DNA of 60,436 bases from a virus. The stretch covers positions 1 through 60,436 of IMG/VR virus record IMGVR_UViG_3300005466_000005. One strand, given 5' to 3'. A program made the translations under genes and the position numbers. This document shows, piece by piece, positions 895-60,436 of this stretch. Every line of letters starts with the position of its first letter. Positions within the stretch are counted from its first letter, which is position 1. The notes under the pieces are model-generated. The model saw only the letters and a program-made list of their open reading frames with translations, was not told where the DNA came from and ran no database searches.

Positions 895-1602
895 ATGCCA
901 CAACCACCACCACCACCACCACGACCACAACGACGGACGGAAATAAGGACCAAGAAACAAAACAAAGGCCACTTGTATGCAGCCACATTTGATTCCACTT
1001 CTATAGCAGTTAGAACAAGTCTCACTTATGCCAAAAAGCTCCTCAGTTTCTATAGACAAACCAAAGACCACAGAAAACAGGTCGACGTGGTTAGAGACAT
1101 CAACAGGATCCTGGATTATAACTGGAATGACCAACGAGGGTCCCGCTGGAACTATGAGTGCTCCCACTTCAATGGAGAATTGTTGGTCGCTGATCGTATG
1201 GCACTCGGATGTAACCATAACCTCCAGACTAGTGCTGGACTCGAACTCGAAAACCTCACAAAGGCTGGGGTTGGCGGCAACCTTATCTCATGGGTGGGTG
1301 TAGCCACAGGGGCAACAGAACCAACAAGAGGTACAACACAGCTAGTAGACGAGGTAGATCGTATTCCTGTTAACCCTGATGGCTGGCTTACAGCTTCTTC
1401 CGACCTGCTGTTTACCGGTGTTATCTGTTCTACTAATTTGGACGACGGCTTGTACAAATCCTTTGGAGGATATACAGGCAACAGTGCTGATGACATCCTG
1501 GGGTGGGTTTGTTTGCTGCCTACAGCTGAATACGTACAGCATGTCAAGGGTAGCACCATCATGATAGTATCCCATGTCGAGGAGAGCATAGCCCTTCAAT
1601 GA
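895..1602 (+). CDS. Tail tip-associated protein, function unknown
   Basis: The gene encodes 235 residues with a proline-rich start (PQPPPPPPRPQRR). No family is recognised. It lies between the hub gene and the giant adhesin and overlaps the latter by 4 nt (ATGA), so it is very probably co-translated with the tail tip genes. A CTTTATAC box at about 858-865 lies roughly 35 nt upstream of the ATG and could be a core promoter. The compact C-terminal half (GGNLISWVGVATG and onward) looks like beta structure. Role in tail tip assembly is an inference from place only. Confidence 0.7.
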   Translation: MPQPPPPPPRPQRRTEIRTKKQNKGHLYAATFDSTSIAVRTSLTYAKKLLSFYRQTKDHRKQVDVVRDINRILDYNWNDQRGSRWNYECSHFNGELLVADRMALGCNHNLQTSAGLELENLTKAGVGGNLISWVGVATGATEPTRGTTQLVDEVDRIPVNPDGWLTASSDLLFTGVICSTNLDDGLYKSFGGYTGNSADDILGWVCLLPTAEYVQHVKGSTIMIVSHVEESIALQ

Positions 1603-21384: not shown

Positions 21385-22017
21385 ATGGTAGGCAGTCCAA
21401 ACCAACTATCAAGACAAGAGGCAGCCCAACTTAGAGACCAAACTTTTACACTCTACATCAAGGGCTACAATGGTGCAACAATCCACAAGACAATAAACAA
21501 CGAACGACAACAAAAGGGTCTAAGACCTGTCAATAAGGCTACTGTTCACAAGTGGGTTAGAGACCTTAACAGAGAGGGAAGCAAGCACTATCTGTCTTTG
21601 CTTAAGGATAAGACTGCCTACATGGTTTTACATCGTTCCAAGCTCTTGGCTTTACAACTTTACAGAACAATGCTACATGACAAGATAGAGGCTATGGGTG
21701 GTATATCATCCATTAAGGCTGAAACACTCAACCGCATGGTACAAACCCTAACCCAGATCACAGTTACAGAGTCACGTCTTGAGCGAGAGATCCCCTCCTT
21801 GTTCACATCATCCCAGGAGACCCTAAATCCAGACCAAGTTAACGACCTAGAGCAGGAGATCTTGGCCGACCTACCCAAGGACTTGAGGGAGCAATTCATG
21901 AAGAATCAAACCAGAAGACAGCGACAGATAGAGCAGATTATAGGAGAAAAGGGCAAAGTAACAGAGAGCGACCTCATTGACCTCGATCAATATCCAAAAG
22001 ATACGTACGTTATATGA
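21385..22017 (+). CDS. terS: Terminase small subunit
   Basis: The 210 residues have an N-terminal helix-turn-helix (LRDQTFTLYIKGYNGATIHKTINNERQQ...KATVHKWVRDLN) that would recognise the packaging site. A long central helix for oligomerisation follows, then an acidic C-terminus that usually contacts the large subunit. It directly precedes and overlaps the large terminase gene, which makes the call secure despite low family conservation. Confidence 0.75.
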   Translation: MVGSPNQLSRQEAAQLRDQTFTLYIKGYNGATIHKTINNERQQKGLRPVNKATVHKWVRDLNREGSKHYLSLLKDKTAYMVLHRSKLLALQLYRTMLHDKIEAMGGISSIKAETLNRMVQTLTQITVTESRLEREIPSLFTSSQETLNPDQVNDLEQEILADLPKDLREQFMKNQTRRQRQIEQIIGEKGKVTESDLIDLDQYPKDTYVI

Positions 22018-23575
22018 GAGCAAAGGATATGCTCCAAGCGATCAGGTAGACCCAGCAAACAGCAACATCACACTCAAGCAGCTAAAGCAGATTGTGTCGA
22101 TGCCATTGTGGTGGACTGATAAAGCCACCCATGAAAAGATGGCTGAGAAATACCCTGATTCCTGTTGTTTCCATCACTTCCTTGGTCTAGAAGAAAAGCA
22201 TGGACAATACAAGGTCCCCCACCCTGGTCTCATAAAATGTTTTAGAGACTGGGACTCCTACCGCGCTAACGTAGTTTGGAAGTTTGGAGGAATGGCTGTC
22301 ACAACTTCGGGAGAATACTACCTACCACACAGGGCTATAGCCTCCCAAAATGTGTCAGTCCGCAACTCCAAAATCGGTATAGTGGTGGGCCCTAGAATGA
22401 AGCTAGCAAGTGATATGCTTGATGATATGCGTGACAAATTCCGAAGAAAACAGGGGATAGAGTTCACAGGAAACAGTACAGAGATTCAATTCCCACCACC
22501 CAATAGGGTAGCCTTAGAAGTCTTCCCATCTAACGTCCATATCTCATCCATCAGAGGCCAAAAGAACATGTCTAGTCTGTGGTTTGATGAGTGCGACCAC
22601 ATCTCAAAGGCTCAGATAACAGATATGCTTGATGCCCTTCAAAGATATCTTCTCAAATCAAGATGCCAGCTAATCCTCGTTTCTACTCCTAAAGCACCAG
22701 ATCATATGTTAGACATCATATCCAGGAAATACTCACACCTCTATCACATAGAAAAATACACTGTCCTAGACTGGGGTATACCTTGGTGTTACACACAGGA
22801 AGAGGTGGAGGAGTTCAAAAAGTGGTCTTCCTTCCCTAGGGAGTTTATGTGCGAGCTACAGGGACAGATAGGAAACGTATTCGATCCAGAGTGGATTGAC
22901 AGAGCCTACAAGATGGGGTTAGACCATATCAAACTAGACCCTAGGATGGAGCCCTTCTATCCAGACAGAATAGATGACCCCATCCTAGAAGATGAGGCCA
23001 TTATACAATATGTAGACAAAAGCTACAACATGCCTATATATCCAAAAGGAATAGGCAGTGACCCAGGTCACGGGTCATCAGACCATGCGACAGTGATAAC
23101 AGCAGTACGGGACAACTTTATCGACGTGGTCTACGCCAAGAAATTCAGGAGATCATCTCCATCGGGTATGACTCAGCTCACCAAAACTCTAGCTACGGTG
23201 TACAGAGGCAACAAGATTCATGTTGATGGAAATAATGCCGGAGCCATAACAGATCTAAAGATAGAGTTCCATGAGGACAACAAGGAAAACAAGTATGATA
23301 ACCTCACAAAGTGGAGGGACCCAGCTATCCAGCGTTACAAGGTGGTCCCCGTCAACTTTAGATCAATGCACAAACTGCTATTACAGACAGCCGTCTACCT
23401 AATGGATAAAGGCAAGATACGAATCCATCCCATCTTTAAAGACCTGAAGGTAGCACTACAAACAGCCACCGCAGTAGAGTTTGACCTAGACAAGGAAGAA
23501 ACAACTTACGACGACTTACTAGACGCATTCATGTTATCATTGCTGTCCCACAACCTGGGGATTAAGAGGGTGTAG
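21977..23575 (+). CDS. terL: Terminase large subunit (ATPase-nuclease)
   Basis: The 532-residue packaging motor starts at TTG 21977 (41-nt overlap with terS), with ATG 22100 as an alternative. The ATPase half shows Walker B SSLWFDECDHI and coupling motif LILVSTPKAP. The nuclease half shows three acidic motifs: GIGSDPGHGSSDHATVI, KIHVDGNNAGAI and TTYDDLLDAFMLSL. The usual GxxxxGK(T/S) Walker A is not evident; the equivalent place reads VVWKFGGMAVTT, a divergent loop. This kind of motor cuts and translocates DNA into the prohead. Confidence 0.9.
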   Translation: MTSINIQKIRTLYESKGYAPSDQVDPANSNITLKQLKQIVSMPLWWTDKATHEKMAEKYPDSCCFHHFLGLEEKHGQYKVPHPGLIKCFRDWDSYRANVVWKFGGMAVTTSGEYYLPHRAIASQNVSVRNSKIGIVVGPRMKLASDMLDDMRDKFRRKQGIEFTGNSTEIQFPPPNRVALEVFPSNVHISSIRGQKNMSSLWFDECDHISKAQITDMLDALQRYLLKSRCQLILVSTPKAPDHMLDIISRKYSHLYHIEKYTVLDWGIPWCYTQEEVEEFKKWSSFPREFMCELQGQIGNVFDPEWIDRAYKMGLDHIKLDPRMEPFYPDRIDDPILEDEAIIQYVDKSYNMPIYPKGIGSDPGHGSSDHATVITAVRDNFIDVVYAKKFRRSSPSGMTQLTKTLATVYRGNKIHVDGNNAGAITDLKIEFHEDNKENKYDNLTKWRDPAIQRYKVVPVNFRSMHKLLLQTAVYLMDKGKIRIHPIFKDLKVALQTATAVEFDLDKEETTYDDLLDAFMLSLLSHNLGIKRV

Positions 23576-26226: not shown

Positions 26227-26790
26227 ATGAGCGTAAACATGTCATTAGAGCAATGGATTCCCAAACAGCAAGAGTCCCCACAACCCCTAAAAGAGGTAGA
26301 AAGAGCACCCGAGGACTACCTAGCCACATTGCTTGTAAGGGTAGAATCATCATCAGGTGTCTCTAATAGCCTAACACATGACGCTGATTTATCTGAACTT
26401 TGGGACTATTATGAGATGCAGATAAGGAGAGGCAATATGTCCAGGCACAAGATCCCAGCTGAGCATTGTAATCAGCTGTGTAGGAGGGTGACGTTTGCAT
26501 ATCCTTCCTCTGTTATCTTCAGACATCCCAAGCAAACCACATTCGCAAAGCTGCTCATAGCTTTAGGCTATAGATACTGTAAGGACTGTGCTGCCCTCTT
26601 CCCAAAGTCCTTCATTATAGACATGCAGGTGCTTCGTAACACAAAGAGACCTATCTACAGACAGACTGCACCCTATAGGGAAGGGTTACCAATCAAGTGT
26701 CCATGTTGTGGATTAAAGACAGCACATGTGAAAACGCTGATAAGAAAGACCAAGGTAGGAAAACAGCTTTTTAGCAATGAGGGCTACTAG
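26227..26790 (+). CDS. Zinc-binding protein of unknown function
   Basis: The 187 residues have two cysteine clusters (YCKDCAALFPKSFII and IKCPCCGLKTAHV) and several basic helices (YYEMQIRRGNMSRHKI). The first 60 residues are low in structure. It overlaps the portal gene by 14 nt, so it may be a late gene. No family is recognised. Confidence 0.58.
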   Translation: MSVNMSLEQWIPKQQESPQPLKEVERAPEDYLATLLVRVESSSGVSNSLTHDADLSELWDYYEMQIRRGNMSRHKIPAEHCNQLCRRVTFAYPSSVIFRHPKQTTFAKLLIALGYRYCKDCAALFPKSFIIDMQVLRNTKRPIYRQTAPYREGLPIKCPCCGLKTAHVKTLIRKTKVGKQLFSNEGY

Positions 26791-28591
26791 TCCTTTATAT
26801 TCCATGAAAAAAGTAGACGAGTCGGCTCTCAAAGCCTCAAACCCCAGCCCTTATGAATCCAATAATGAGAGGAAGCTCACAAAGGAAGAGCTTAGAGCTA
26901 AACTAAAAAACATGGTAGTAACAAGGATGCGAAACTACTATCAACCTGTTAGCAAGACTGTAGCACCTAACAACAAACCACTTGATTATGAGGACGCTAT
27001 TCACAGACGCCTATTGTTTGCAGGTATTAACCCAGAGGAGTTTATGAAGAAAAACAAGACCAAGCTACCCAAGTCAGATAACGCATTAGACACCATAGAC
27101 AAGTTCACACCTGTGTATGACCCTGACTACATGGCAAGACTACAGAATGCAGCGGAGTTTGATCCTACCATCAAGAAGGCTGCCAGAGTTAAGGCTTGGT
27201 ATGTGTTAGGCAGGGGAAAAGGTATCAAACAGAGAATGGAGATGCATACAACCAGAGAGTTTGAAACCAGAGCCGAGTATGACTCTTACTTTAACGAGCT
27301 ATTCCCTGAGAAGGAAGCAAGGAAGGCAGTATTTGACTATGTAGACAACGTGTGTATAGACTCTAACATCTTTACAAACCTATCAGAGATCTATGAGTTG
27401 TCAATCTATTTTGGCCGTGCTGCTAGCATCAAGATATTCATGAATGACAAGGCCATCAAGGAAAGGGGATGGGATGTCAAAAAACAATACTTTGACAGAA
27501 CACCTATCCTGTTTCAACCCTTGTCTCCTATGCTGATGGGTAACGTCACAGTTAACGAAGACACCTGGCTACCCACCTACTTATGGTACAATGATTCCAT
27601 ATTTGGCAAGGACAAGAACGACCAGGTAATAGCAGGAGGCTGGATCAAAAGCGATAGGATGATCTACATGGCAAGAAGAGATATACATCTTATCGCTAAC
27701 AAGCTAAGGTATGGACTCAGCGACCTCCAGCCCGTTCTACCTCTATCAGAGCTCTGTCGTCAGATATATTCCAACGTTCTCGGTGAGGCCGTCTCTAACC
27801 TTATCCTACCATCATTGTTCTTGGTGTTCGACTCACTCGACGAGGACAGCATGCAAGCAATCATCGACAACTACCAGCAAGGCGGGATCATGGGTAGAAA
27901 CAAAGATGTAGAGGTAGAACCTTTAGACTTTAACGTAAACCTACCAGCTATCATAGACCTCATGAAAGCGCTTCAAAGGATGGTATATGCTGCACTTGAA
28001 GTCCCCTACTTGTTTGGTGGTGATGAAGGAGAATTTAATAGGAGTGTCGCTGAAACAGTAACAGATGTGTGGCAAAAGACAACGTTGGACCCAGAGCGAG
28101 ATGATATTCAATCTATCTACGACGGGCAATTCACTGGACCCCTTGTATCAGACTACATGGACAAGTACTACAACGGACAGTATTACAACTGGAACGCAGA
28201 ACGACTCAAGTTCGTGCTCAGGTTTAAGAAAATAGACTTTGCAAATGTGTTCGACAAGGCACAGTCAATCAAGCTATTGATAGACGCTGGTGTTGTCACA
28301 ACAAGACAAGCTCAGTTAATGCATGATTCAGAGAGCTATCCAGATGACCAAGCTATATCAATAGAAGCATTGCAGTCCATGTTAAAGAACAACCCAGAGT
28401 TACAGGAGCAAGTGCTGTCATACATAGGCCAGCTTCGTAACATCAAGGCCATGTCACAGGCAGGACTAGCACAAGACGGAGGACAACAAGAACAAGTAGA
28501 CCCACAACAGAAGGCAAACCAAGAGATAGACCAAGCAATAAAGAACCAGAAGGCTGACAGTTTAGAAAAGGTAGTAAACAACAGGTTTTGA
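26777..28591 (+). CDS. Portal protein
   Basis: The product is 604 residues from ATG 26777, with ATG 26804 as an alternative. Portal features are the long stem/wing region (SDRMIYMARRDIHLIANKLRYGLSDLQPVLPL), the helix pair around LPAIIDLMKALQRMVYAALEVPYLFGGDEGEFNRSVAE, and a glutamine-rich C-terminus. It follows the terminase module and precedes the capsid genes, as expected. The portal forms the dodecameric DNA gate at one capsid vertex. The order of motifs is convincing even without a close relative. Confidence 0.85.
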   Translation: MRATSPLYSMKKVDESALKASNPSPYESNNERKLTKEELRAKLKNMVVTRMRNYYQPVSKTVAPNNKPLDYEDAIHRRLLFAGINPEEFMKKNKTKLPKSDNALDTIDKFTPVYDPDYMARLQNAAEFDPTIKKAARVKAWYVLGRGKGIKQRMEMHTTREFETRAEYDSYFNELFPEKEARKAVFDYVDNVCIDSNIFTNLSEIYELSIYFGRAASIKIFMNDKAIKERGWDVKKQYFDRTPILFQPLSPMLMGNVTVNEDTWLPTYLWYNDSIFGKDKNDQVIAGGWIKSDRMIYMARRDIHLIANKLRYGLSDLQPVLPLSELCRQIYSNVLGEAVSNLILPSLFLVFDSLDEDSMQAIIDNYQQGGIMGRNKDVEVEPLDFNVNLPAIIDLMKALQRMVYAALEVPYLFGGDEGEFNRSVAETVTDVWQKTTLDPERDDIQSIYDGQFTGPLVSDYMDKYYNGQYYNWNAERLKFVLRFKKIDFANVFDKAQSIKLLIDAGVVTTRQAQLMHDSESYPDDQAISIEALQSMLKNNPELQEQVLSYIGQLRNIKAMSQAGLAQDGGQQEQVDPQQKANQEIDQAIKNQKADSLEKVVNNRF

Positions 28592-28754: not shown

Positions 28755-29867
28755 ATGGTTAAACAAAACGTCAGAAAGAAAGACAAACCAAAGATCTGTC
28801 TAGACAAGAACCTACCCTATGATCCTACTACCCAGCTTCACGCTTATCAGATAGCCAAGGCAAAGAACCTACGCAACATACCAGAAGCTAACATCGTCGA
28901 TAAGATGTCACTAGCTCTGGTGCGTGCAAAGTTCCACAAGATAGGAGATACACTTACAGTCAAATTCCTCAATGGAACCCAAGCACAAAAGGACAGAACA
29001 ACAGAGATGGCTAAAGACTGGGAGAACTATGCTAACCTCAAGCTAGAGTTTCAATCCAACATATCAGGTAACGCCGACATACGTATCGGTTTTAAGTGGC
29101 GCAATGACGTAGGCTCTTGGTCTTACATAGGCACCGACATCTTTAACATCCCACAACAAGAAGCTACAATGAACTTTGGATGGTTAGACGTCAATGGTAG
29201 AGACACCACCGAGTATAGTAGAACAGTCAAACATGAGTTCGGTCATACTCTTGGATGCATACACGAACATCAGAACCCTAGCGCTAACATACCCTGGGAT
29301 AAGCCTGCTGTCTACCGTTATTTCCAGGGACCGCCTAACAACTGGAGCAAGGAAGACGTAGACAATAACCTGTTTGCTACCTACGATTCTAGCAAGTCAC
29401 AGTTCTCTCAATTCGACAAGGAATCAATAATGCTCTATGCTATAGATAACTCCCTCACCATAGGCGATTATGAAGTAAAGGGTAACACCACCTTATCAGC
29501 TATAGACAAGTCATTCATAGGCACGATATATCCAAAGGTAGACCCAACAGCCCCAGACTCTGACCATATTATCAACCTTGGAGATACGAAGAAGGCTTCG
29601 ATTGGCGCATACTTGGAGGAAGACTATTACGAGTTTGAGCTAAAGAGCGACCTTGCTACCAGAGTTAACATCTACACAGAAGGATCCACCGACGTTGTAA
29701 TGTCGCTTGTACGCGCTGACACTATGACTGTCATAGCATGGGATGATGATTCAGGACAAGGTACAAACGCCAAGATAATCAAAACCTTGAACAAGGGCAA
29801 ATACATCATTAGGGTAAGACACTACTCTCCAAAGAAGATAGGCGACTACTCTATCACACTCACATAG
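28755..29867 (+). CDS. Astacin-like zinc metalloprotease with PPC domain
   Basis: The product is 370 residues. The catalytic site HEFGHTLGCIHEH (about residues 157-169) is the canonical astacin HExxHxxGxxH(E) motif, and a Met-turn is present as SIMLYA (about 225-230). The last 100 residues look like a prepeptidase C-terminal (PPC) beta domain (INLGDTKKASIGAYLEEDYYEFEL to IIRVRHYSPKKIGDYSITL). No signal peptide is seen, so it may act inside the cell or ride on the virion and digest the host S-layer on entry or exit. Such enzymes are unusual in prokaryotic viruses. Confidence 0.85.
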   Translation: MVKQNVRKKDKPKICLDKNLPYDPTTQLHAYQIAKAKNLRNIPEANIVDKMSLALVRAKFHKIGDTLTVKFLNGTQAQKDRTTEMAKDWENYANLKLEFQSNISGNADIRIGFKWRNDVGSWSYIGTDIFNIPQQEATMNFGWLDVNGRDTTEYSRTVKHEFGHTLGCIHEHQNPSANIPWDKPAVYRYFQGPPNNWSKEDVDNNLFATYDSSKSQFSQFDKESIMLYAIDNSLTIGDYEVKGNTTLSAIDKSFIGTIYPKVDPTAPDSDHIINLGDTKKASIGAYLEEDYYEFELKSDLATRVNIYTEGSTDVVMSLVRADTMTVIAWDDDSGQGTNAKIIKTLNKGKYIIRVRHYSPKKIGDYSITLT

Positions 29868-29872
29868 CAAGG

Positions 29873-30121
29873 ATGATAGACGAGACGATGACCGATTCAA
29901 AAAATAATGATAACGGTAAATGGATTCTCCTTGACGAAATCCCAATTGACAGGTTGGTATTAGGACGATTGGATCCAAAGACCGGAAAGATAATAGCAGA
30001 GTTGGTATTAGGACGATTGGATCCAAAGACCGGAAAGATAATAGCAGAGATTGTCTACCGGTATGAAGCACCTTCGTTATTGCCGGATCCACGAAAGAAT
30101 GCGTCAAATGGAGCGTGCTAA
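29873..30121 (+). CDS. Small protein with an exact 16-residue tandem repeat
   Basis: The 82 residues contain LVLGRLDPKTGKIIAE twice in a row, coded by a perfect 48-bp tandem duplication (29954-30049). The start is acidic (MIDETMTDSKNNDNG). It follows the protease by 5 nt and overlaps the HNH gene tail-to-tail by 18 nt. No family is recognised. Confidence 0.55.
   Translation: MIDETMTDSKNNDNGKWILLDEIPIDRLVLGRLDPKTGKIIAELVLGRLDPKTGKIIAEIVYRYEAPSLLPDPRKNASNGAC
29954..30049. repeat. Perfect 48-bp tandem duplication
   Basis: Bases 29954-30001 and 30002-30049 are identical. The unit is 16 codons, so the frame is kept. Zero divergence means the duplication is recent, is maintained by slippage, or is an assembly artefact. 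Confidence 0.9.
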
Positions 30122-31048: not shown

Positions 31049-34000
31049 ATGAGTAGTGGATATCAAGAACCAGCGGGTGGAACGGCCTCACCTAGTTCTG
31101 GTACAGCAGTAGGCTCTAAACCAATTAGAGCATGGCTTAAAGTCCTCCGTAACGTGGATGTGACAGCAGAGCCAGATTTTGGTACTAATTTCATCCCACG
31201 TATAAAAACACCTATAGAGATCTTATCCACTGCCCTACGCATTCAGAACCCTGCTCAAACCTTCTATACCAACCTAGAGTCTGCTGCCCTCCTCAGCAAC
31301 CAGTCCATCAAGATTCCTATCATCACCGCTACAGAGTCAGGCAACAAGAAAGACGAGGTAGTTCTTCTTAAACAAACCCAGTCCTTAGAGAACAAAAAGT
31401 TTCCCACCTACTACGACGTTACAGAGACTGCAGAACCTTCCAATCCAGCTGCTGGTACTCTACGTATATACGCTAACTCCACTACTCATGAGCTAACCCA
31501 AAGAGATAGTACTGGTACAGAGAAGAAGATATCTGATGGTACTGGTGGTGGAGGTGGAGGAGCCCCCACAAATGTTCCCTACTTAACACTAGCTAGCGAT
31601 GGTACACTCACAGTCGAACGTGTATTAACAGCATCTGGGCGTGTGTCCATTACAGATGCAGGAGCCAATAGTACCGCTACCTTAGATATCGTAGCTGGGT
31701 CCATTGTCGACTCACAGATAGGAACTCACACATCCACCAAGATCACAATCACTAGCAAGTCACAGCTCAACTCTAACATCTTATACGGAGATCAGAATAA
31801 TGCCCTTGGTTCTAACTATGTAGACATAACTGAGAGGGCAGCACCTTCCAACCCTGGTGCAGGAGTGCTTCGAATCTATGCCAATTCCACTACCCATGAG
31901 CTAACCCAGCGTGATTCAACAGGAGCAGAAAAGAAGTTTAGTGATGGCTCTGGTGGCGCTGGTGGTGCTCCAACCACAAGCACATACCTGACTTTATCTA
32001 GTGATGGCTCTCTATCTGCTGAGCGAGTACTAACAGCTTCCACACGTGTAACCATTACAGATGCTGGAGCTAACAGCACAGCAACCCTAGACATAGGTTC
32101 AGGCTCTATAGTCGATTCATACATTGGGTCACACACCTCTACGAAAATTAGCATCACAGCCAAAGGGCAGCTCAACAGTGCTATAGTATATAACGATCAG
32201 ACTAATTCATTTGGCGACTTTAACCAGGTGTTTAAAGATAACAGGCTACTCATAAACAATCCAGCTGACACATTCGCCTACACATTAGTTGCAGCGGCTA
32301 TTGCAGCTAACCGTACTATCACTCTCCCTCTGCTTACAGGTAATGACATAGCCGTAACAGAGGCATTTGCACAACCGCTCACCAACAAGACAATAGCAGT
32401 AGGAAGCAACACTGTAACAGGTATAGCAGATACAAACATCTCAGCTCATACCTCGACTAAGATCTCTATCACCGCCAAAGGCCAGCTTAACAGTAGCATA
32501 GTCTACACAGACCAGGCTAACACATTTGGAGCATTCGATCAACTCTTCCCAACCTCTAGATTAAAGCTAGGGGATTCTGATGCTAGCAACGCCTACATAT
32601 TTGCGGGCTCAAACCTAGCTGCTGATAGAACCATAACATATCCACTGTTGACAGGAAATGACGTGCCTGTCTTTGAAGCGTTTGCTGCAACCATCACTAA
32701 CAAGACGATGTCAGGCGCTTCTAACACATTCACTAACATTGGAGACAGTGCTATCGCCTCACACACGTCTACTAAAATCACGATAACAAGCAAGAGCCAG
32801 CTTAATTCAAACATCCTTTATTCAGATGTAGATAACGCACTAGGTGCTCACTATGTGGATATAACAGAGACAGCAGCACCTGCTAACCCTGGAGCTGGTG
32901 TATTGCGTGTTTATGCTAACTCCACAACACATGAGATAACACAGAGAGACAGTGCCGGTGTAGAAAAGAAATTCTCAGATGGAACGGGCGGTGGTGGAGG
33001 CGCACCTACCTCATCTCAATATCTTACACTGGCTAGCGATGCTACATTATCAGCTGAGCGAGTGCTTACTGCATCATCCCGTGTTACGATAACAGATGCT
33101 GGTGCAAACTCTACAGCAACTCTGGATATAGGCACAGGATCCGTAGTTGATTCTTACATCGGCAGTCATACATCGACAAAGATCAGCATAACAGCAAAGG
33201 GGCAACTCAATTCAGCCATAGTCTACAATGACCAAGCTAATTCATTTGGTGACTTTGCTCAAACATTCAAAGACAACCAACTCAAGATCAATAATCCTGC
33301 TGATACATTTGCCTATACTATCATAGCAGCTGCAATCGCTGCAAATAGAAACCTCACTCTACCACTTCTTATAGGTAACGACACAGTAGTAGCAGAAGCC
33401 TTCGCCCAAACCTTAACTAACAAGACAATCGACTTTGCAAGTAACACAGGGACAAACATAGGCGACTCGGCTATAGCTAGCCATACTAGCACCAAGATAT
33501 CCATCACGGCTAAGGGTCAGCTTAACTCATCCATTGTATACTCAGACCAAGCAAACACATACGGTGACTTTGACCAGAACTATAGAAGCTCGAGGCTTAA
33601 GGTAGCCAATCCAGCTAACACATTCTACTATTTGGTAGCAGGCTCAGCCATTGCAGCTAACAGAACTATAACACTGCCATTGCTCACCGGTAATGATGTA
33701 GCTGTAACAGAAGCCTTTGCACAACCGCTCACAAACAAAACGATTGACTTTGCAAGTAACACAGGTTCAAACATTGGTGATTCAGCAATTGCTTCTCACA
33801 CCTCAACTAAGATTAGTATAACGGCTAAGGGTCAGCTAAACTCCTCAATAGCCTATGTGGATCAGGCAAACGTCTTTAGTGACAACGATCAATCATTAAG
33901 GTCTAACCGTCTAAGAATAGCAAACCCTGCTAACACATTCTTTTATTCATTTACAGCAGCAGCCATTGCAGCTAACAGAGTCATAACACTGCCGCTGCTT

Positions 34001-36625
34001 ACAGCAGGCGACACTATGGTTACTGAGGCTTTTGCACAAGCACTGACTAATAAGACAATCAATGCCTCATCAAACACAGTAACTAACATAGGAGACAGCG
34101 CCATAGCCGCTCATACAAGCACCAAGATAACAATCACAGCCAAAGGCCAGCTCAATAGCGCCATTGTATATACGGACCAGGCCAACACATTTGGAGCATT
34201 CGACCAGTTATTCCCCACATCACGTCTAAAGCTTGGAGACTCAGACGCTTCCAATGCTTATATCTTTGCAGGGTCAAACCTTGCAGCTGACAGGACAATA
34301 ACATATCCACTTCTCACTGGCAACGATGTCCCAGTGTTCGAGGCGTTTGCTGCAACTCTTACTAACAAGACCATGTCTGGGGCATCAAACACTTTTTCAA
34401 ACATTGGCGATTCAGCCATCAGCACCCACACATCAACCAAGATAACAATCACAACAAAATCACAGCTTAACAGCCAGATCTTGTATGGTGATCAGAACAA
34501 CGTCATAGGAGCTAACTACATAGAGATTTCTGAGATGGCTGCACCAGCTTCTCCCGCTGCTGGTAAGTTGAGACTGTGGGCTGATTCAACAACCCATGAA
34601 TGGTCCCAGAAGAACAGCAGTGGAACGGTTGTTAAGATGTCAGATGGTTCAGGTGGTGGTGGAGGGATTACTGCATCAAGCTCCGACGTCCTAACCAACA
34701 AGACGATAAGCCCCACGTCAAACATCTTACCCTACCTTTCGTCTAATGCTTATTCCATATACCAGGATGGTGGAGCAGTAAAAGCAAGAAACAATCTAAC
34801 AGGAGCTATAACATCCGATACCAACATCGATCCACTACTTGTTACTATCCTAGCATCAGGTAACCCATCAGTTGAAATCCAGACAGGATACTACAACCTG
34901 TCAGGTGGATTCTCAGGGTTTAACATGGTTACAAACGCTACAGTAAAAGCACCTGAATGGGCTACATTCAATCTTCCTGGGGGATATGCCGGTTCAGTAT
35001 TCAAGTTCTCTCCAAACGACGACAACATATACAACGCTTCTGTCGAGGGCATTTTTATGGACGAGCTCGCAACCAGGGCGTATGATTGGACTGCCTTTGA
35101 GTTTGCTCCTATCTATGGTGGGGTCAACAATAAGGGCGGTGTGGTTGCATGTCGTGTAGAAAACTGTAGGGTATGGCGCGCCAAGTATGCCATACGCTTC
35201 TCAACGAATGGACTAAGCTGGGGTTCTGACAACATATTTAGAAACATACTGGCTGAAGCATGTGAGTACCTTGTCTACTATGAACATGCCAACACCTATA
35301 CTGCCGACGCTTCAGGATTCCACACTGCAAAGTTTGAGAACGTAACCTTACAAGCAACTGCATCAGCCCCCCAAACACAAGGAGGTATTATAGGGGTGTT
35401 GGGAGACTGGAACCAGTTCCAAGATTGCAACATTTGGGACTTGCAGGCTTCTAACTCCTCTGCATCTTCTATGACTATATCTGCTAATGCACGAGGCACC
35501 AAGATATTGGGCGGTCTCTTAGCCCATAGGCTGTTCACAGATAGCGGTGTTAGAACCGACATAGATGATGATTGGACTGGATTACAGAAAAAGAAGCCTG
35601 CCACATTCTACGATACTGTAACCATCCGTAAAGATGCATTTGCCCCACTCCAACTCTTCAGACCTACAAACGCAGCTTTTGCTTCTATGGCATTCCAGTA
35701 TAACATGCTTGATGCAAACTCTGCTCTGCTTACCATGGGAGAGATAGCAGCAAACATGGATGTGTCCACACTTGATGCTGAGACATCGTATGTTGAAATC
35801 CAGTATCTAAAAGCCGGAGCTATGGGTAGGGGTGTTGTATTTGCAGGTGATAATATTTGGATTGGACCAAACACCAAGCAACTTCGCCTTGCAACAACAG
35901 GTTTAACAGGTATAAGAACATGGACATATCCTGATAGTAGCGGAGTTACTGTTGGAGAAGCAAACACCCAAACTTTAACCAACAAAACTTTAACTAGCCC
36001 TGTTATATCTTCAATCACCAACACAGGTACTCTCACACTTCCAACCAGCACTGATACCCTCGTTGGAAAAGCCACAACAGATAACCTTACAAACAAAACA
36101 ATGCATGGCGTTAACTGGCGAGTTACAGCCAAATCAGCTGATGCTACCCTTGCTGCTGATGAGAGTATAATCCCTGTTGATGCTTCAGGTGCCAATCGTA
36201 CTATGACCCTCCCAGCTGCAGCATCTAGTACAAACAAGATCTACATCATATCGAAAACTGACAGCAGTACTAACACCGTGACTATAGATGGTGCATCATC
36301 AGAAACCATCAACGGAGCACTAACCTTCGTTCTAACACAACAATACCAGTCTGTGATGATTTGGTGCAATGGTAGTGCTTGGTTTACTCAGCCCAACAGC
36401 ACAGAAAGAACCGGTAAGGCCGTCGCTTCTGGAACTGGCTCCCAAACAGTGTTTACAATCTCACATGGGTTGGGATCAACACCATCAAACGTATTTGTTG
36501 ATTGTTCATCTCATGCCATTGGAAGAACGTATACTGTTGACTCTACAACCATAACGGTTACCTTTACTAGTGCCCCTTCATCAGGGACTAACAATGTGAT
36601 CATTTACTGGAGAGTTATAGCATAG
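31049..36625 (+). CDS. Giant repetitive tail fibre with pectate-lyase-like beta-helix
   Basis: This 1858-residue fibre is built in stages. The N-terminus (about 1-130) probably attaches to the virion. Residues about 130-1200 repeat modules such as SHTSTKISITAKGQLNS, NRTITLPLLTGND and AFAQTLTNKTI, at least eight times. Residues about 1240-1530 look like a right-handed beta-helix (VACRVENCRVWRAKYAIRF, FENVTLQATA, QFQDCNIWDLQ). The C-terminus ends in a compact domain (QTVFTISHGLGSTPSNVFVD). It most likely binds and perhaps processes host surface glycans. Protein-identical repeats are coded by different synonymous codons. Confidence 0.85.
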   Translation: MSSGYQEPAGGTASPSSGTAVGSKPIRAWLKVLRNVDVTAEPDFGTNFIPRIKTPIEILSTALRIQNPAQTFYTNLESAALLSNQSIKIPIITATESGNKKDEVVLLKQTQSLENKKFPTYYDVTETAEPSNPAAGTLRIYANSTTHELTQRDSTGTEKKISDGTGGGGGGAPTNVPYLTLASDGTLTVERVLTASGRVSITDAGANSTATLDIVAGSIVDSQIGTHTSTKITITSKSQLNSNILYGDQNNALGSNYVDITERAAPSNPGAGVLRIYANSTTHELTQRDSTGAEKKFSDGSGGAGGAPTTSTYLTLSSDGSLSAERVLTASTRVTITDAGANSTATLDIGSGSIVDSYIGSHTSTKISITAKGQLNSAIVYNDQTNSFGDFNQVFKDNRLLINNPADTFAYTLVAAAIAANRTITLPLLTGNDIAVTEAFAQPLTNKTIAVGSNTVTGIADTNISAHTSTKISITAKGQLNSSIVYTDQANTFGAFDQLFPTSRLKLGDSDASNAYIFAGSNLAADRTITYPLLTGNDVPVFEAFAATITNKTMSGASNTFTNIGDSAIASHTSTKITITSKSQLNSNILYSDVDNALGAHYVDITETAAPANPGAGVLRVYANSTTHEITQRDSAGVEKKFSDGTGGGGGAPTSSQYLTLASDATLSAERVLTASSRVTITDAGANSTATLDIGTGSVVDSYIGSHTSTKISITAKGQLNSAIVYNDQANSFGDFAQTFKDNQLKINNPADTFAYTIIAAAIAANRNLTLPLLIGNDTVVAEAFAQTLTNKTIDFASNTGTNIGDSAIASHTSTKISITAKGQLNSSIVYSDQANTYGDFDQNYRSSRLKVANPANTFYYLVAGSAIAANRTITLPLLTGNDVAVTEAFAQPLTNKTIDFASNTGSNIGDSAIASHTSTKISITAKGQLNSSIAYVDQANVFSDNDQSLRSNRLRIANPANTFFYSFTAAAIAANRVITLPLLTAGDTMVTEAFAQALTNKTINASSNTVTNIGDSAIAAHTSTKITITAKGQLNSAIVYTDQANTFGAFDQLFPTSRLKLGDSDASNAYIFAGSNLAADRTITYPLLTGNDVPVFEAFAATLTNKTMSGASNTFSNIGDSAISTHTSTKITITTKSQLNSQILYGDQNNVIGANYIEISEMAAPASPAAGKLRLWADSTTHEWSQKNSSGTVVKMSDGSGGGGGITASSSDVLTNKTISPTSNILPYLSSNAYSIYQDGGAVKARNNLTGAITSDTNIDPLLVTILASGNPSVEIQTGYYNLSGGFSGFNMVTNATVKAPEWATFNLPGGYAGSVFKFSPNDDNIYNASVEGIFMDELATRAYDWTAFEFAPIYGGVNNKGGVVACRVENCRVWRAKYAIRFSTNGLSWGSDNIFRNILAEACEYLVYYEHANTYTADASGFHTAKFENVTLQATASAPQTQGGIIGVLGDWNQFQDCNIWDLQASNSSASSMTISANARGTKILGGLLAHRLFTDSGVRTDIDDDWTGLQKKKPATFYDTVTIRKDAFAPLQLFRPTNAAFASMAFQYNMLDANSALLTMGEIAANMDVSTLDAETSYVEIQYLKAGAMGRGVVFAGDNIWIGPNTKQLRLATTGLTGIRTWTYPDSSGVTVGEANTQTLTNKTLTSPVISSITNTGTLTLPTSTDTLVGKATTDNLTNKTMHGVNWRVTAKSADATLAADESIIPVDASGANRTMTLPAAASSTNKIYIISKTDSSTNTVTIDGASSETINGALTFVLTQQYQSVMIWCNGSAWFTQPNSTERTGKAVASGTGSQTVFTISHGLGSTPSNVFVDCSSHAIGRTYTVDSTTITVTFTSAPSSGTNNVIIYWRVIA
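32516..32731 (+). repeat. Fibre repeat copy A (72 codons, synonymous twin at 34181)
   Basis: These 72 codons encode the same protein as 34181-34396 except for one Ile/Leu change, but by my alignment about 45 codons differ silently, including serine AGC versus TCC and arginine AGA versus CGT. Confidence 0.8.
34181..34396 (+). repeat. Fibre repeat copy B (synonymous twin of 32516-32731)
   Basis: This is the partner of copy A. The two are near-identical as protein yet diverged across most third codon positions, so the duplication is old and protein sequence is strictly conserved, or silent divergence is favoured. Confidence 0.8.
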
Positions 36626-48848: not shown

Positions 48849-49781
48849 ATGGCTCCACCAGTTTACAAAATTGCCACTAACAAAGACTACACTAAACAGC
48901 TACAATACTACTTAGAGGACGCCTACAAGGTCGCTAACGTAGATGAACAATGGCTTAACTTCGGATATGTCCAAGGTTTCCAAGCTACAGAAGCACTTGA
49001 TAGAGAAGTTATCAGAGAAATAGGAAACGAAGATATCGCCTTTGACTTGAAGATGGGGACCACAGGCTCCGGAGAGTTGAGGTGGCGGATGGTCGATCCA
49101 ACCTTCGCACAATACTGTATGAAGCTTGCATCCGGTGCAGGTACACCTGACCAATCCTTCCGTATTTTAGAAGCATGTAAAATAAACGCAGCTGAGAAAT
49201 TCGCAGAGGCACAAGGCTGCTATCCTACCCGTTTTTCACTCACCTATGCTAGATTCATAGACTTGTCAGCATCCGTGTTTATCGGTAACATAACAGACTG
49301 GATTAACGAAGCTGCTTTAGACGTTATAGAAGGATCAGGACAAACATACGCTGTACCAGTAACAGCTTCACCTTGGTCCAACCTCAGCGGTGCAACACAA
49401 GAGCCATTCAAGATTAACTGGGGTTCTGGACTTGTAAGCTACGATAACCTATCATTTACGATGGATGTCAACAGAGGTCTAGCAACTAGCCAACCATCAG
49501 GATATGATACTGTCAAAGATGCAGCCATAGCTTCAAGAGAGATTACTGGCACCTGGACAACCCCAATGACTGACAACGACTTGGTAGCAAAGTTCAAAGC
49601 CCATACACCCGGTACAGTTGAAATCACCTTGAAAGCAGGAGCAACACCATGCAAGCTAAACATTCAGAACTTTAAGCTAAACACGATGCCCAGAGTCACA
49701 GAGTTAGGCAACACTGGTATCAGAGCTTGGACCTTTAACTGGCAAGCACAGACAGGAGATATAAGTAACTACGTTCCATAG
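48849..49781 (+). CDS. Major tail tube protein
   Basis: The 310 residues are beta-rich with the tail tube pattern: an N-terminal KIATNKDYTKQLQYYLED helix, FGYVQGFQATEALDREVIREIGN, a central NLSFTMDVNRGLATSQPSGYDTVKDAAIASREITGTWTT, and a last strand RAWTFNWQAQTGDIS. It comes directly before the tail chaperones and tape measure, the canonical place. It should be abundant, and it has its own promoter. Confidence 0.75.
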   Translation: MAPPVYKIATNKDYTKQLQYYLEDAYKVANVDEQWLNFGYVQGFQATEALDREVIREIGNEDIAFDLKMGTTGSGELRWRMVDPTFAQYCMKLASGAGTPDQSFRILEACKINAAEKFAEAQGCYPTRFSLTYARFIDLSASVFIGNITDWINEAALDVIEGSGQTYAVPVTASPWSNLSGATQEPFKINWGSGLVSYDNLSFTMDVNRGLATSQPSGYDTVKDAAIASREITGTWTTPMTDNDLVAKFKAHTPGTVEITLKAGATPCKLNIQNFKLNTMPRVTELGNTGIRAWTFNWQAQTGDISNYVP

Positions 49782-51870: not shown

Positions 51871-52002
51871 ATGATCTTTGGATTTGAAATGGCCTTTATC
51901 ACGTTTGGGGTCTTGGCTGTCATTGGTCTTACAGTATACCTCCTACATGATATGGGAAAGAAACACGATGATGATGATGATAACGAAGGTGTTCCATATT
52001 GA
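51871..52002 (+). CDS. Membrane micro-protein (43 aa)
   Basis: The 43 residues are one span (FEMAFITFGVLAVIGLTVYLL) and a strongly acidic tail (HDDDDDNEGV). It begins 1 nt after the previous stop, and its stop overlaps the tape measure start (TTGA). A membrane protein so tightly linked to the tape measure suggests a function at DNA injection or assembly; this is inference. Confidence 0.55.
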   Translation: MIFGFEMAFITFGVLAVIGLTVYLLHDMGKKHDDDDDNEGVPY

Positions 52003-55000
52003 GCGCCTCAGGTAAGGACTTTACATATGGACTTAGTCTCCAGGTCAAGGGGGCTGAGCAGGTAAGTGCAGCACAAAGGCTGCTTGACCAATTTTATGCG
52101 TCTCTTACTAAGGGAGTTGGAGAAATAACAAAGTTCTCCAGCTCTTTCTCAAAGGGTACGAGTGATGTTGCAACCTCTACCCAGAAATTACAACAATCTA
52201 GTAACACATTAACCCAGGGTCTTAATCAACAAAGGACAGCCTACCAGGGTATCTCACAGGTACAGACTCAATACAAGACTACAACAGACCAGACAGTACA
52301 GTCTCAAACCAGGCTGGGGCAGGTTACTCAAACCCTACAGAATGCTTTCAACCAAGAGAAAACCGCTCTGATGGGAGCATCCCAATCAACTCAACAGCTA
52401 AAGACATCAACAGATCAGATGCTTACTAGCCAGGGCAAAGTGTCTACCACGATGGGTCAAAACGTACAGCAAATGAACCTGTACAAGACAGCCCAACAGC
52501 AAAGCCTAGCAACAACACAGCAGCTTAACACGGTAACTGAAAAGACCGTTTCAACAATGGACCGGCTGAAGGCTTCTGCTGGTACGCTTACCCTTGGAAT
52601 TACTACTCTAACAACTGGAGCTTTCAACCTATACAACACATACGACAACCTCAATGATGTACAGCTAAAACTCGAAACAATGAGGATCAAGGAGGAGGCT
52701 TCAGTAAAGAAGGCAGCCGATGCACAGCGCAAATATAATGAAATGCTCAAGGATGGCAAGAGCACACAAGCAGAACTGGAAAGCCAGCTCAAACAGGTAG
52801 AAATAACAAGAGATAGAGCCACCCTTGCTACAGCAAAGCTGCAAGATGCTCAAGAAGATTTGGACAGAGCCTGGAAAGATTTCTACATCAATGTGTTACC
52901 AGCTTCTATCCAAACCTTAGGTGGTGGTGCTGCTGCTATAGGCACCTTTGCCACAGCTATGCGTAATACAAAACCTGCAGCTGATTCGGCTAAGGCGTCA
53001 ATATCTACTTTGGGACAGGCCGCCACAACTGCAGGGGGCGGTCTGACTACCGTAGCCGCTGGAGGATCTAGACTTATACCCATACTGGGTGGGGTGGGTG
53101 CAGCCATCGTGGCAGTGGGTGCATCTCTGGTGGCAATAAACCAGAACTTTGGTGGCTTCCGTGATATAATGAATAATGTGGGTGAGGCTATCGGTACAGC
53201 TGTCCCACAGTTTGAAGGTATTCTCAACCTGATCAAAGGATTCGCAGGACAGATAGGCCTCTCAGGCGAAAAGACCGAAGAATGGCAGAAGGCCATGACC
53301 GAAGGTCTAGAAATAGTAGGCCAACAATGGGAACAGATCAAGGCAGTAGCCATTCCCATACTATCAACAGTGGAGGAAGGGCTCAATCAGTGGGGCTTTG
53401 CAGTACAGAAGGTTGTACAAAACTACCAGGATATGGCTAACTCCACGGCAAAGTTTATTGGAGATATACAAAGAGGCTGGGATACTCTTGTTAATGGAGC
53501 CAACAACTTAGGCAGTCAGATAAAGACAGCCATAGATACGGGATTAGCATTCCTTACAAACCCAGCCACATATACTAAGGCGTTTGATGGACTGCTCACT
53601 AGCGCAGTAGAGGCAGGACAAAACGCCGTCAACATCCTAACTTCAATCATAGGTAAGATCGGTGCTTTCGTCTTTGGTTCTGATACATGGGGCAACCTTA
53701 CAAAGGGGGCTTTAGAAGCAGCACAAAACAGTGTGAAAATAATCCAATCTGTGTTAGGAGGTGTAGCATCATGGTTTGATGAAAATGTAGTCAAGCCTAT
53801 CTCCCAGAAAATAGCAACACTGCCGGTACCAACTGATCCCAACTACCAAAAGGAATTAGATTATTCCCAACGTGTCCAGACAGCGATGGGAGGAGCCGAA
53901 CGGGGCAAAATACCTGGTGCTCAATACAACACAATCCAGAGGGCTTTGGACACAGCCGGACAGCCATCAACTTATACTCCACCCCCACCGGCCCAAAAAG
54001 GACCACCCATCACCGGTACATCAGGTCAGGCATATCCCACAGCTAAACCACAACAGACAACACCATTTGCTACTCCTCCCGGTTTAGGATCCGCACCAGG
54101 TCAACAATACAAAGATTTGCAAATGGTCTATGCACAACTTGCAGCCGAGACAGATAAAGCCACAGCCGCCCAGAAAAACTTGAACAATGAGGAAGGCTTA
54201 GGCACCAAAATAAAGAATGCACTTCTAGGTATAGTAGGCAAACAAAACGTAGCTACTGGAGAGGCCGTAACCGCAACAGGCGCAGTAGCAAAAGCCACTG
54301 GCGAACTGTCAAAATCAACTGTGGACTTTATAACTGGTTATCAAGAACAGGGAGAAGTCTTAGACAAAAACGTAGAGTCCTTGCAAAAGACAGCTGGGGG
54401 TGTGACACGTCTCAAAGAACAGTTGGCAGATGGTGCAATACAGGCTGTATCCTTCGCACAAGGCTTTAAGGAAGCAGAGAAAGAATTCTTAAACACACAG
54501 CTTACTACATCCAAACTATCTGGTGAGGTCGCCTTCCTATCAAAGAACTTGGGTGATGCTGGAGCAATTGCAGTAAGGACAGCCGCAGGCTTTGTACAGG
54601 GCGCCAAATCCGTCTTTGATTGGGCCGGTTCCTTTGACACCCTCAAAGGGTCTATGTCAGGATCCAGACAGGCTCTTGAAGATGTAGCCCAAACAATGGG
54701 TGTTAAAATCCCAGAAGGATTTGCTGGTGGTACTGAAGCATTAAAGGAATTCATATCCCTCACCAAGGCAGCAGGTCCAGAGTTTCAGTCCTTTATCGAC
54801 AATGTAAACAAGGCAGGTGATAGCATAGCACAAAGCTTAGGCGAGGCTCTCCGTAAGGGTAATGACGAATTTAATGACGAGATCGACAAGCTAGAGGAGG
54901 ATTGGGGATTCAAGTTTAACAACGCTCTCAAGAACGCACTAGAAGGTCAAGCCGGACCAGAGGCAATAGATAGTCTAATCACGGATTTAAACACCGCTAT

Positions 55001-58000
55001 AGCCGCAGTAGGTCCTGCCATAGCCAATCCTGGTGTTTGGGACAATATTAGAGAAGGCTTTACCGAACAGATTGAGGAAACCTTTGATGACTTTGCAGAA
55101 AACGGCGGAGAGGCCGCACAGACAGCAGTACAAGCGATAATCGACAAACTAAACGAACCACTAGACACCAGTAACCCAATGGCTATCTCAGAAAGGATAG
55201 CTGAGGTCCAGGCTATGATTGTTGCACTAAAGAACCAGAGCGGCACATCTTTGCCTGGTGTTGTTACGGACCTCAACTCTGTCAACGACATAAACTTTGA
55301 TGATGCCATTAAACAGATAGACAATCTTAACAACGCTCTTAAAACACTCGGTTCCGGTGACGCTGGTGCTGGTGCAGCTGCCAAAGCCGTAGGAGATGCA
55401 GGTGATATATCCGGCGGTGGTGGTGGAGGCTCCGGTGGCGGTGGTGGTATTGCTTCTGGATCCTCAGGTGGTGCCGGTGCTGGTGGCGGTGGTGGTAAAG
55501 GCGGTACTGCTGGAAAAGACTCAAAGAAAAGTGCTGGTAAAGCCAATCTTCCCATCGATATTGCAGCATTTCAAGCTAACTTGGATGAAGCTACCGCTGC
55601 ATTCACCGAATTCATGACTACACTGTTTACTAACGCTGCTGGTATTCCCAACGGTGTTATGGCTGGCATCTTGCCTATTGTTGAGATGTTTAACACCCAA
55701 GTTGTTGCTCCTATTGTTCAGTTATCTATTGGCACTTTGGGTCCTGGTATAGTCCTGGGTTTTGACTCAGCCAGAGCACCTATCGAATCCACTCTCACAG
55801 CAATAAGAGACGCTGCTGCCGGAACGTGGACTACCATCATATCAGACGCTCAAGGACTTGGTCCTGGTATCGCAGCAGGTTTTGCAGCAGGTAGAGATCA
55901 ATCAGCTCCCCACATATCGGGGTTAGCTGAGGACTTTGCTTCTAATGCAGTAGTCCCAATCGAGACTATGGCCGACGGATTAGCCGAAACGATTGGATCA
56001 GCATTTGAAAAAGGAAGAGATAGAGCTACTACAGCACTAGGAGATATTGAGAAGGCTGCTAACACTGCAAAGTCGGCAGTCGAAGCAATTGGCTCAGCTG
56101 TAGAAAGTCTACCAGATCACAAGACTATCACTATCGATATTGTTACTAATGGTTCGGTTCCCAATGTAAACGCCTCCGGTTTTGAGGGGGTCGTTGGTGG
56201 TAGACCAGGAGGCACAACATTCACAGCTGGAGAGGCTGGACCCGAACTTGTATCTATTATTCCATTAACTAGGCCGTTTACTGGCCCTGGCTCTCCAAGA
56301 GGTGGAGCCGCCCCTGGCTCTCATGTATTTGCGGCAGAAGGATTCCAGGGGTTAGTAGGAGGAGGTGTCACCCCCGACTATGCAACATATAGACATGGGA
56401 ACTTGGCAGGACATATGCCTAACTCAATCACAATCGCTGATGTAAACATCGCTATGGTAGGTGGTAGACCAGTGTCCTCAGTTGGTGGAGTGCTAGGAGG
56501 TATCCCCGTCACGATTGTGTCTGGTAATTCTGGTTGGGTTACTGGTGGTGGTATTACAGGTGGGAATGGTGCAGGAGGAGGCTCCTCAGCTGGTGGAGGT
56601 TCATCCGGAGGCCAGACAGGCGGCTCAAACATACAAAGACAGATAGATGTAATGGAGAATGGCCAACGCCTCTACTACTACCAGAATGGTTCAGACATCA
56701 GAACTAACATGAATGCCGAGCAGATAACCAGGTATGTTGGTTCTACTGCTGGATCTGGCGGCGGAGGAAATGGGACTGCTGGTGGTGGTAATGGCGGCAC
56801 TGGTGGCGGTGGTAATGTACCCGCTGGTGCCAAATATGGTGATTATGACTCAGGTGCTATTCAAACATCTGGTGGGTCAAAGTGGTCTACTAATCCAGGT
56901 GACCCATCTACTTGGAAGGTTGTACCAATGACTGATGATCCAAGCAAATGGAAAGTAGTCGACGCTTCGGGTAGGAACGTAGCTGCTGGGTTTGGGGCAG
57001 AAGATGAAGCTAGAGGATATATCGAAGACAAGAAAGCAGGTAAGGGCTACAATGACACCTCCTCACCTGACTATATCCCTGGTGGCGGCACTGGTGGCGG
57101 CGGCTCACCAACATTCCCCAATAACCCACCCTCAGGCGGCTCAGGTGGCGGCGGTTCAGGCCAAGGCGAAGTATACACCGTCCCCTCTGATGTCAGGACA
57201 ACAGACCCCAATCCAGGAGACGATGATGAAGGCAGATGGGATAATGTAAACACAAGCGACCCCAACACGTGGCGAGTAGTTAGGATGATCAATCCTATGC
57301 CTGGAACTAACACATATAGATGGAAAGTCGTTAATGATGAAGGCAAAAACATAGCTATCAGATTCAACACCCGAGCAGAAGCACAAGCATATATCGACGC
57401 TCATAAAAGGGCAAAGGCTAATGGAACTTACCAAATACCCACTACAGGCGGAGGTACATTAAACGTAACAGGTGATAATGGTAGTCCAGGCTCTGGCGGC
57501 GGCACTAGTGGAACTGGCGGTGGTACCGGCGGCGGCACTAGTGGTACTGGTGGCTTCGACTTTGACAACCAACAACCAGGACCGGGTGAATACTCAACAT
57601 CCACCGGATATGTAGTACCTGACTACGTACAGACCCCAGGTCATGGGACTACTGGCACATCACCTGTATGGCAGAACCCTAACATGGATCCCAGGACCTG
57701 GAAAGCCACTGAGATGACAAGTAGGGGCTATGAGGGTAAGTGGAAAGTGGTAGACTCTGCGGGTATTAACATAGCAGCCAACTTCAATTCTAGAAATGAA
57801 GCTGAGGACTTTATTGCCGATCACATAACAGCCTATTATCCGGAGGGTGCATTACCACAACCAGGGACGGGTGGCACAGGCGGTACAGGCGGTACAGGTG
57901 GCGGTACAGGCGGCGGTACAGGTGGCGGTACAGGCGGTACTGGTGGACAAACACCAGGAACTGGTACCGGCGGCAGTGGTGGTACTCCTACAACTGGAGG

Positions 58001-59342: not shown

Positions 59343-60436
59343 ATGTCCTTTATAGACACACCCTATGACGAAGTAAAAGAGATAACAGCTGGCGAGCTTG
59401 CTTTCCAGAATGGATACACCAAGCCACTCAAATTCCGCATCAAGGTACAGGACCCCTACGAAGATGAGACCCTCATAACCTATGACTCATGGGATGCAAA
59501 CAGAGGGCAGGGTGTCTCCCTCACAGATGTAGGAGTAACACAGGGGATGACGATGGCAGGGGACTTTGTGCTTTCTATGAACGATTCTAGAGACAGGATT
59601 GTAGACGATGAGAAAGTAAACCCAGGCTGTATAGTAACAGTAGAGGCAGGTAAGACTCCCACCAAGATGGTAGAGATCGCTTACGGGATCTGCTACGTCA
59701 AGGAGATGGAGCGAATGAAAACAAGGTATAGGCAATTCACATTAGAGGGATTGGGGTGGGGGTCTTTACTCTCTTATACACATGTCAACTTCCAGAGGAT
59801 AGCACCACCCGTAAAGGTCACAAGCAGAAACCAACTCCTCAACTTTGAAAAGCTCTACAACCTCGATGATGTCAAACACATTGCTCACCAGGTAGTAACA
59901 GACTTGTTCGAAGATCCTTTACTTATGCCGTTTGGAGGTTTGTCCCTCAAGGATAGAGGGCATTTTGACCTGTCTGGTATATCCAAACTAGTCACCGACT
60001 TTTTACCTACAATTAACTACCCCATTGTCGTAGCAGCTGAGGTGCTCAAATCAATACAGGCTATGACAGGTACCATTGCTAACATTGAAGGCCATAACCG
60101 TGTCAAGTTTATGCATCCTAATTCCATGATATCAGGACACACCATCCGCTCAGACTTCGATGAGAATGACCTAGGCCTAGGTGAATGGACCTCATACTCT
60201 GATGGAGAATGGAGTTATAGAAACAGCATACTACCAGGAGACAACTTTGCTAACCGTCTGATTGCTAGAGCAGAAAAGATAGACGATATGACAGGTAGTG
60301 TATATGCTACTGCTGCAACATCTTTGTTTAACAAGGACATTGCCCAACGTCTACCACCTACCACTGTCTTATCAAACTTGAGTATGGTTCTCTCCAAAAC
60401 AGGGGGAGGTACAGATGAGGATGACCCATTGAGGGC
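59343..60436 (+). CDS. Tail hub/baseplate-like protein, N-terminal part
   Basis: The gene starts at the ATG directly after the tape measure stop (MSFIDTPYDEVKEITAGELAFQ) and runs off the window end, continuing at 61-850. The first 130 residues (AFQNGYTKPLKFRIKVQDPYEDE, then YRQFTLEGLGWGSLL) look like a beta-sandwich found in distal tail or hub proteins. Residues about 230-330 include a helical insert and IANIEGHNRVKFMHPNS. Full length is 627 residues. Together with the tape measure it should form the tail tip base. Confidence 0.75.
   Translation, partial: MSFIDTPYDEVKEITAGELAFQNGYTKPLKFRIKVQDPYEDETLITYDSWDANRGQGVSLTDVGVTQGMTMAGDFVLSMNDSRDRIVDDEKVNPGCIVTVEAGKTPTKMVEIAYGICYVKEMERMKTRYRQFTLEGLGWGSLLSYTHVNFQRIAPPVKVTSRNQLLNFEKLYNLDDVKHIAHQVVTDLFEDPLLMPFGGLSLKDRGHFDLSGISKLVTDFLPTINYPIVVAAEVLKSIQAMTGTIANIEGHNRVKFMHPNSMISGHTIRSDFDENDLGLGEWTSYSDGEWSYRNSILPGDNFANRLIARAEKIDDMTGSVYATAATSLFNKDIAQRLPPTTVLSNLSMVLSKTGGGTDEDDPLR
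60377..60436. repeat. Terminal direct repeat (second copy)
   Basis: Exact copy of bases 1-60. Collapsing the two copies joins the 5' part of the tail hub gene (from 59343) to its 3' part (ending at 850) without a frame change. Confidence 0.9.

Follow-up and report, generated by a model that had tools for sequence, protein, structure and literature searches.

A viral tail fibre whose repeated modules are conserved in protein and saturated at silent sites

The window, the whole stretch of DNA analysed here, covers the 60,436 nucleotides of IMG/VR record IMGVR_UViG_3300005466_000005 (positions 1 to 60,436). Its first 60 nucleotides (1-60) are identical to positions 60377-60436, so that the contig closes on itself; the genome is probably complete and circularly permuted, with a length of about 60,376 bp. 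Matches to PHROGs identified a terminase large subunit (21977-23575), a minor tail protein (48849-49781) and a tape measure protein (51999-59342). The gene under study, an open frame encoding 1858 aa at 31049-36625 on the plus strand, is placed in this tailed-virus genome together with the terminase and tail genes. It was assigned as a tail-fibre gene on the basis of PHROG matches that include a virion structural protein and of a C-terminal model resembling tailspike beta-helices. Just upstream, the product of 28755-29867 gave weak matches to matrixin/astacin metalloproteases and to a PPC domain. A 1349-aa protein (1599-5648) with a weak concanavalin-like (LamG) match is possibly another surface or adhesion protein.

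No DNA relatives of the virus were found in INPHARED, and no close relatives were found in IMG/VR when the terminase, the protein of 26777-28591 and the fibre N-terminus were searched. Among public phages, the terminase matched only the Nitrososphaera provirus Pro-Nvie1, with 25% identity over 82%. Although this is the best match, the provirus is far from being close kin of the window virus, and its annotated tail fibre gene, known here by annotation, measures only 564 bp. Terminase matches were also present in 2 of 398 Nitrososphaerota genomes, the only group covered by that search, with identities of 25-33% over the terminase matches. Judged from these sequence matches, the virus probably infects ammonia-oxidising archaea.

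The fibre is built in the order unique N-terminus, partial B module, B1-A1-A2*-B2-A3-A4-A5-A6*-B', predicted beta-helix and a tip with LTNKTL-type modules, with A units of 105 aa and B modules of 135 aa. All of these features lie on the plus strand. Alignment of the B modules placed the partial copy (B0) at 31400-31723, followed by B1 at 31724-32128, which shares 84% amino acid identity with B2 (32759-33163). From the module map, A1, consisting of a connector and a payload, occupies 32129-32443, and A3, A4 and A5 occupy 33164-33478, 33479-33793 and 33794-34108. The two A*-type units, A2* (32444-32758) and A6* (34109-34423), are those directly preceding a B module, B2 and B' (34424-34672, the end of the repeat shaft), respectively, and they are identical at 100 of 105 residues. 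Within them, the almost identical 72-residue payload (32516-32731 and 34181-34396) starts just past the connector (HTSTKIxITAKGQLNSxIVYxDQ) and ends at the linker preceding the next connector. GC3 ranged from 0.30 to 0.47 over the units and was 0.46-0.47 in both A* copies; it was uninformative, and the idea that foreign modules could be marked by their composition was rejected.

The repetitive shaft is followed by a predicted right-handed, tailspike-like beta-helix domain (34742-35509), a layout characteristic of tail fibres and tailspikes, with the beta-helix taken from a model of moderate confidence. The AF2 model showed pLDDT values mostly of 50-88 over this region, falling below 50 in short stretches near its end. 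In Foldseek searches the domain matched AlgE4 in the PDB with an E value of 1.1e-3, phage tailspikes more weakly, and phage appendage proteins among viral structures with an E value of 3e-5. These fold matches are borderline. The model belongs to the same fold class as tailspike-type right-handed beta-helix fibres (AlgE4-like, Sf6, CBA120 TSP2 and Kp7 fibres) but gave low global TM scores against them, and no sequence match of the fibre to any solved structure was found. The AF2 model of an A* unit, with a pLDDT of 61, was too poor for use. The LTNKTL-type modules of the tip (35921-36115) are common to many viral fibres.

The two 72-residue payloads were confirmed to be identical at 71 positions, the sole difference being Ile/Leu, as had been noticed when the sequence was read on its own. 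As also described there, 45 of the 71 identical residues use different codons, with switches between codon families of serine (AGC/TCC) and arginine (AGA/CGT). At the DNA level the copies differ at 51 nucleotides (76% identity) and their longest exact run is 20 nt. If codons are assigned to the residues at random according to the codon usage of the fibre gene, 43.5 ± 3.9 silent differences are expected. The silent sites of the payload are fully saturated, and the copies differ neither more nor less than by chance. The codons had been described as scrambled; the silent differences are real, but they show no excess over random expectation.

The statement that other modules of the fibre follow the same trend held as well. 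Silent codon differences numbered 61 against 61.4 expected for the whole A2*/A6* unit, 73 against 72.6 for B1/B2 and 53 against 49.2 for A1/A3. In silent identity, almost all repeat pairs within the fibre lay close to the random level or on it, except for a long alignment at +555, which was slightly below (127 against 141, z = -2.0). No recent DNA identity was found between any pair of repeats of the window fibre.

A codon model, fitted on a bounded grid, gave for the A* payload a dS of at least about 6 (2dlnL of 4 at dS 6.3) and a dN/dS (omega) of at most about 0.003, the near-zero dN resting on 72 residues. With silent sites saturated and dN near zero between units, the copies have the signature of ancient repeats, which fits the proposal that purifying selection of great strength has acted on an old duplicate pair. 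Serine offers a further indication of age. Its two codon sets and their selective context have been described (PMC6872785). In the A units, TCN/AGY switches numbered 47 of 87 against 35 expected, and between viruses they occurred at 1.05-1.15 times the random level. At such a low omega, a single-step model predicts almost no such switches, since they need two changes. Their occurrence at or above the random level implies either double substitutions or brief excursions through other residues, both of which argue for great age.

In order to place the fibre among others, 80 further IMG/VR fibre loci (L039-L118) were collected by means of the LTNKTL stretch, out of 258 related stretches. Modules were compared within and between fibres over 117 fibre ORFs, all from metagenomic contigs and with pairs that are not independent. 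An isolate control with the LTNKTL consensus gave no match, possibly through low-complexity masking. Between viruses, fibre modules with 70-95% amino acid identity showed a median ratio of observed to expected synonymous differences of 0.98-1.01. Conservation of the protein with saturation of the codons is thus the normal state of fibre modules between viruses, and tandem modules of this kind are found in modular phage and archaeal-virus fibres with LTNKTL-type repeats, as in the window fibre. For the LTNKTL consensus, protein-identical and codon-saturated stretches reached up to 124 aa between viruses. Within fibres, the per-fibre median ratio was lower, at 0.89, than the 0.99 obtained for modules of different viruses (p = 3e-5, uncorrected for shared modules). 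Most of the surveyed fibres retain some DNA similarity among their own copies, whereas the main pairs of the window fibre retain essentially none. The A2*/A6* region, with 107 aa, is the longest within-fibre stretch in the survey combining at least 95% amino acid identity with saturated codons; the next measures 70 aa.

The only near relative of the window fibre is a 4377 bp fragment (L018), in which the order B-A-A-B'-beta-helix reproduces the layout of the window fibre. The B' modules of the two are 91% identical in protein and are not saturated, with 34 silent differences against 47.8 expected (P = 4e-4). With serine positions left out, the best estimate for this orthologous pair was a dS of about 1.2 and an omega of about 0.01. 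B2 was closest to the B module of the relative (37 against 44.2, P = 0.045). Codons are also held in common between the last A unit of the relative (LA2) and the connectors of A4 (9 against 17.8, P = 6e-4) and A6* (12 against 18.5, P = 0.01), both P values being uncorrected for 36 comparisons. Connector and B modules are conserved at 81-91% in the relative, but the payloads differ completely and the A* payload is absent there. The two payloads of the relative are in turn nearly identical to each other in protein and codon-saturated. Since B' and the connectors are unsaturated while the payloads differ, the array must have been replaced in one lineage or in both. Judging from this one relative, we infer an exchange of payload arrays in the form of cassettes, whose copies would already have been mutually saturated upon arrival in at least one lineage.

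The reading that we consider likely is that the modules are old, that their protein is held by purifying selection while silent sites have drifted to random, and that payload cassettes are exchanged from a pool. The gene product would serve a tailed virus, probably one infecting ammonia-oxidising archaea, as its receptor-binding tail fibre, in which the observed array of A and B modules would form a shaft ending in the predicted beta-helix and the tip. Measured by the silent-site clock, the modules would be very old, with the protein fold presumably kept nearly fixed by purifying selection while ordinary drift randomised the silent sites, as their saturation suggests. A conserved connector and an exchangeable payload appear to make up each A unit. 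Turnover of the A array probably proceeds by replacement of payload cassettes from a pool that related viruses share, so that copies within one fibre could resemble independent draws from that pool, as the single relative points to. Four points count against this explanation. Only one informative relative is available, a 4.4 kb fragment. In other viruses, the A* payload was matched at no more than 67% identity, and only over a part of it. Orthologues usually diverge more slowly than paralogous repeats within proteins (Persi et al. 2016, PMC5120217), and the window fibre presents the opposite case. Finally, the main repeat pairs of the window fibre lack the residual DNA similarity that within-fibre copies show in most surveyed fibres.

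Polyubiquitin-like arrays, too, consist of protein units that are nearly identical, maintained by purifying selection, and carry many silent differences. The window fibre resembles them in both respects; ubiquitin, however, is conserved across species, whereas no other virus was found to carry the A* payload.

The main caveat is ascertainment. Short-read assembly tends to lose fibres that contain long exact repeats; if their genes are broken or collapsed in this way, intact sequences would be recovered only where the repeats have diverged, and part of the pattern could arise from this. The longest exact internal DNA repeat in the surveyed loci was 62 nt, below the usual assembly k-mers and read lengths, and this ceiling may be an assembly limit instead of biology. 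Such a bias would account for missing young duplicates but not for the 95-99% protein identity of saturated copies, and partial DNA identity is present in many surveyed fibres. We regard it as a possible but doubtful explanation.

The sequence-only reading had offered an old duplication. The copies are indeed old, but duplication in place is too simple an account in view of the cassette exchange suggested by the relative. In its strict form, a 345-aa block (B-A-A*) would have been duplicated long ago and then kept by purifying selection, and no modules would have been imported. It finds support in the collinearity of B1-A1-A2* with B2-A3...A6* at +345 aa (81% identity) and in the equal saturation of every part. 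In contrast, B' and the A connectors are less silently diverged between the window fibre and its relative than any paralogues are, and their payloads differ, which implies at least one replaced array and makes this history unlikely. A stronger form of the exchange model, in which payloads from a shared pool are inserted time and again between conserved connectors of the fibre in this archaeal-virus lineage and copies coexist only once their DNA has diverged below a recombination threshold, is judged quite improbable; if true, identical protein in different codons would be the stable state.

The other proposal made from the sequence was that DNA identity between repeats is selected against. Identical repeats would recombine and delete shaft modules, and homology-breaking synonymous changes would be favoured. 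Several observations are in line with this idea. Exact matches between the repeats of the window fibre do not extend beyond 20 nt, the two payloads of the relative, identical at 42 of 44 residues, differ by 32 silent changes against 25.4 expected, single pairs in one surveyed fibre (L068) reach z = +2.5, and both known fibres of the lineage are fully saturated. Nevertheless, the silent differences of the payload do not exceed random, and the repeats of the window fibre share 77 12-mers against 41.6 ± 13.5 in codon-permuted versions, an excess. The same permutation applied to 54 viral fibre genes gave a median observed/expected ratio of repeated 12-mers of 1.78, and significant depletion was detected in none of them. 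About 2.5% of the surveyed pairs had z > 1.96, as chance predicts, and copies inside one fibre are more similar in DNA than copies between viruses. Codon draws, codon permutation, k-mer counts and exact-run length were all without signal. Moreover, a small ORF that lies upstream of the fibre, at a distance of about 1 kb, contains an exact in-frame tandem duplication of 48 bp (LVLGRLDPKTGKIIAE twice, 29953-30049), a fresh DNA repeat within the same virus. Repeats of high nucleotide identity, named at the outset as speaking against the pattern, were encountered in related viral fibres, but none in the window fibre. Nothing indicates selection against DNA identity; as an explanation it is very unlikely, and for this lineage, whose two known fibres are fully saturated, it is unsupported.

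A distance effect, in which adjacent copies would be more diverged, was not observed within 10 fibres (median rho 0.07, p = 0.80); when pairs were pooled, nearer copies were, on the contrary, slightly more similar in DNA (rho 0.22, p = 0.016). A chimeric assembly of fibre segments from two strains, which could supply two codon versions of one module, has a negligible chance of being correct, as the copies offer an assembler no exact run above 20 nt to join on and the reading frame is intact over 1858 codons.

Receptor-binding fibres are usually regarded as fast-evolving, yet the modules described here are among the most constrained measurable sequences, and the comparison between viruses indicates that strong constraint is common for such modules. 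Repeated modules of viral fibres cannot, then, be presumed to be recent duplications, and codon-saturated ones are overlooked by repeat finders that operate on DNA.

Antisense ORFs overlap both A* copies, and codon scrambling would alter the protein encoded by them. On a Nitrososphaerota MAG contig (L025, 5398-5892), a protein is encoded whose N-terminus is signal-peptide-like and which contains a module resembling the A* payload (VYTDQANTFGAFDQLF), a hint that host surface proteins and viral fibres may share modules.
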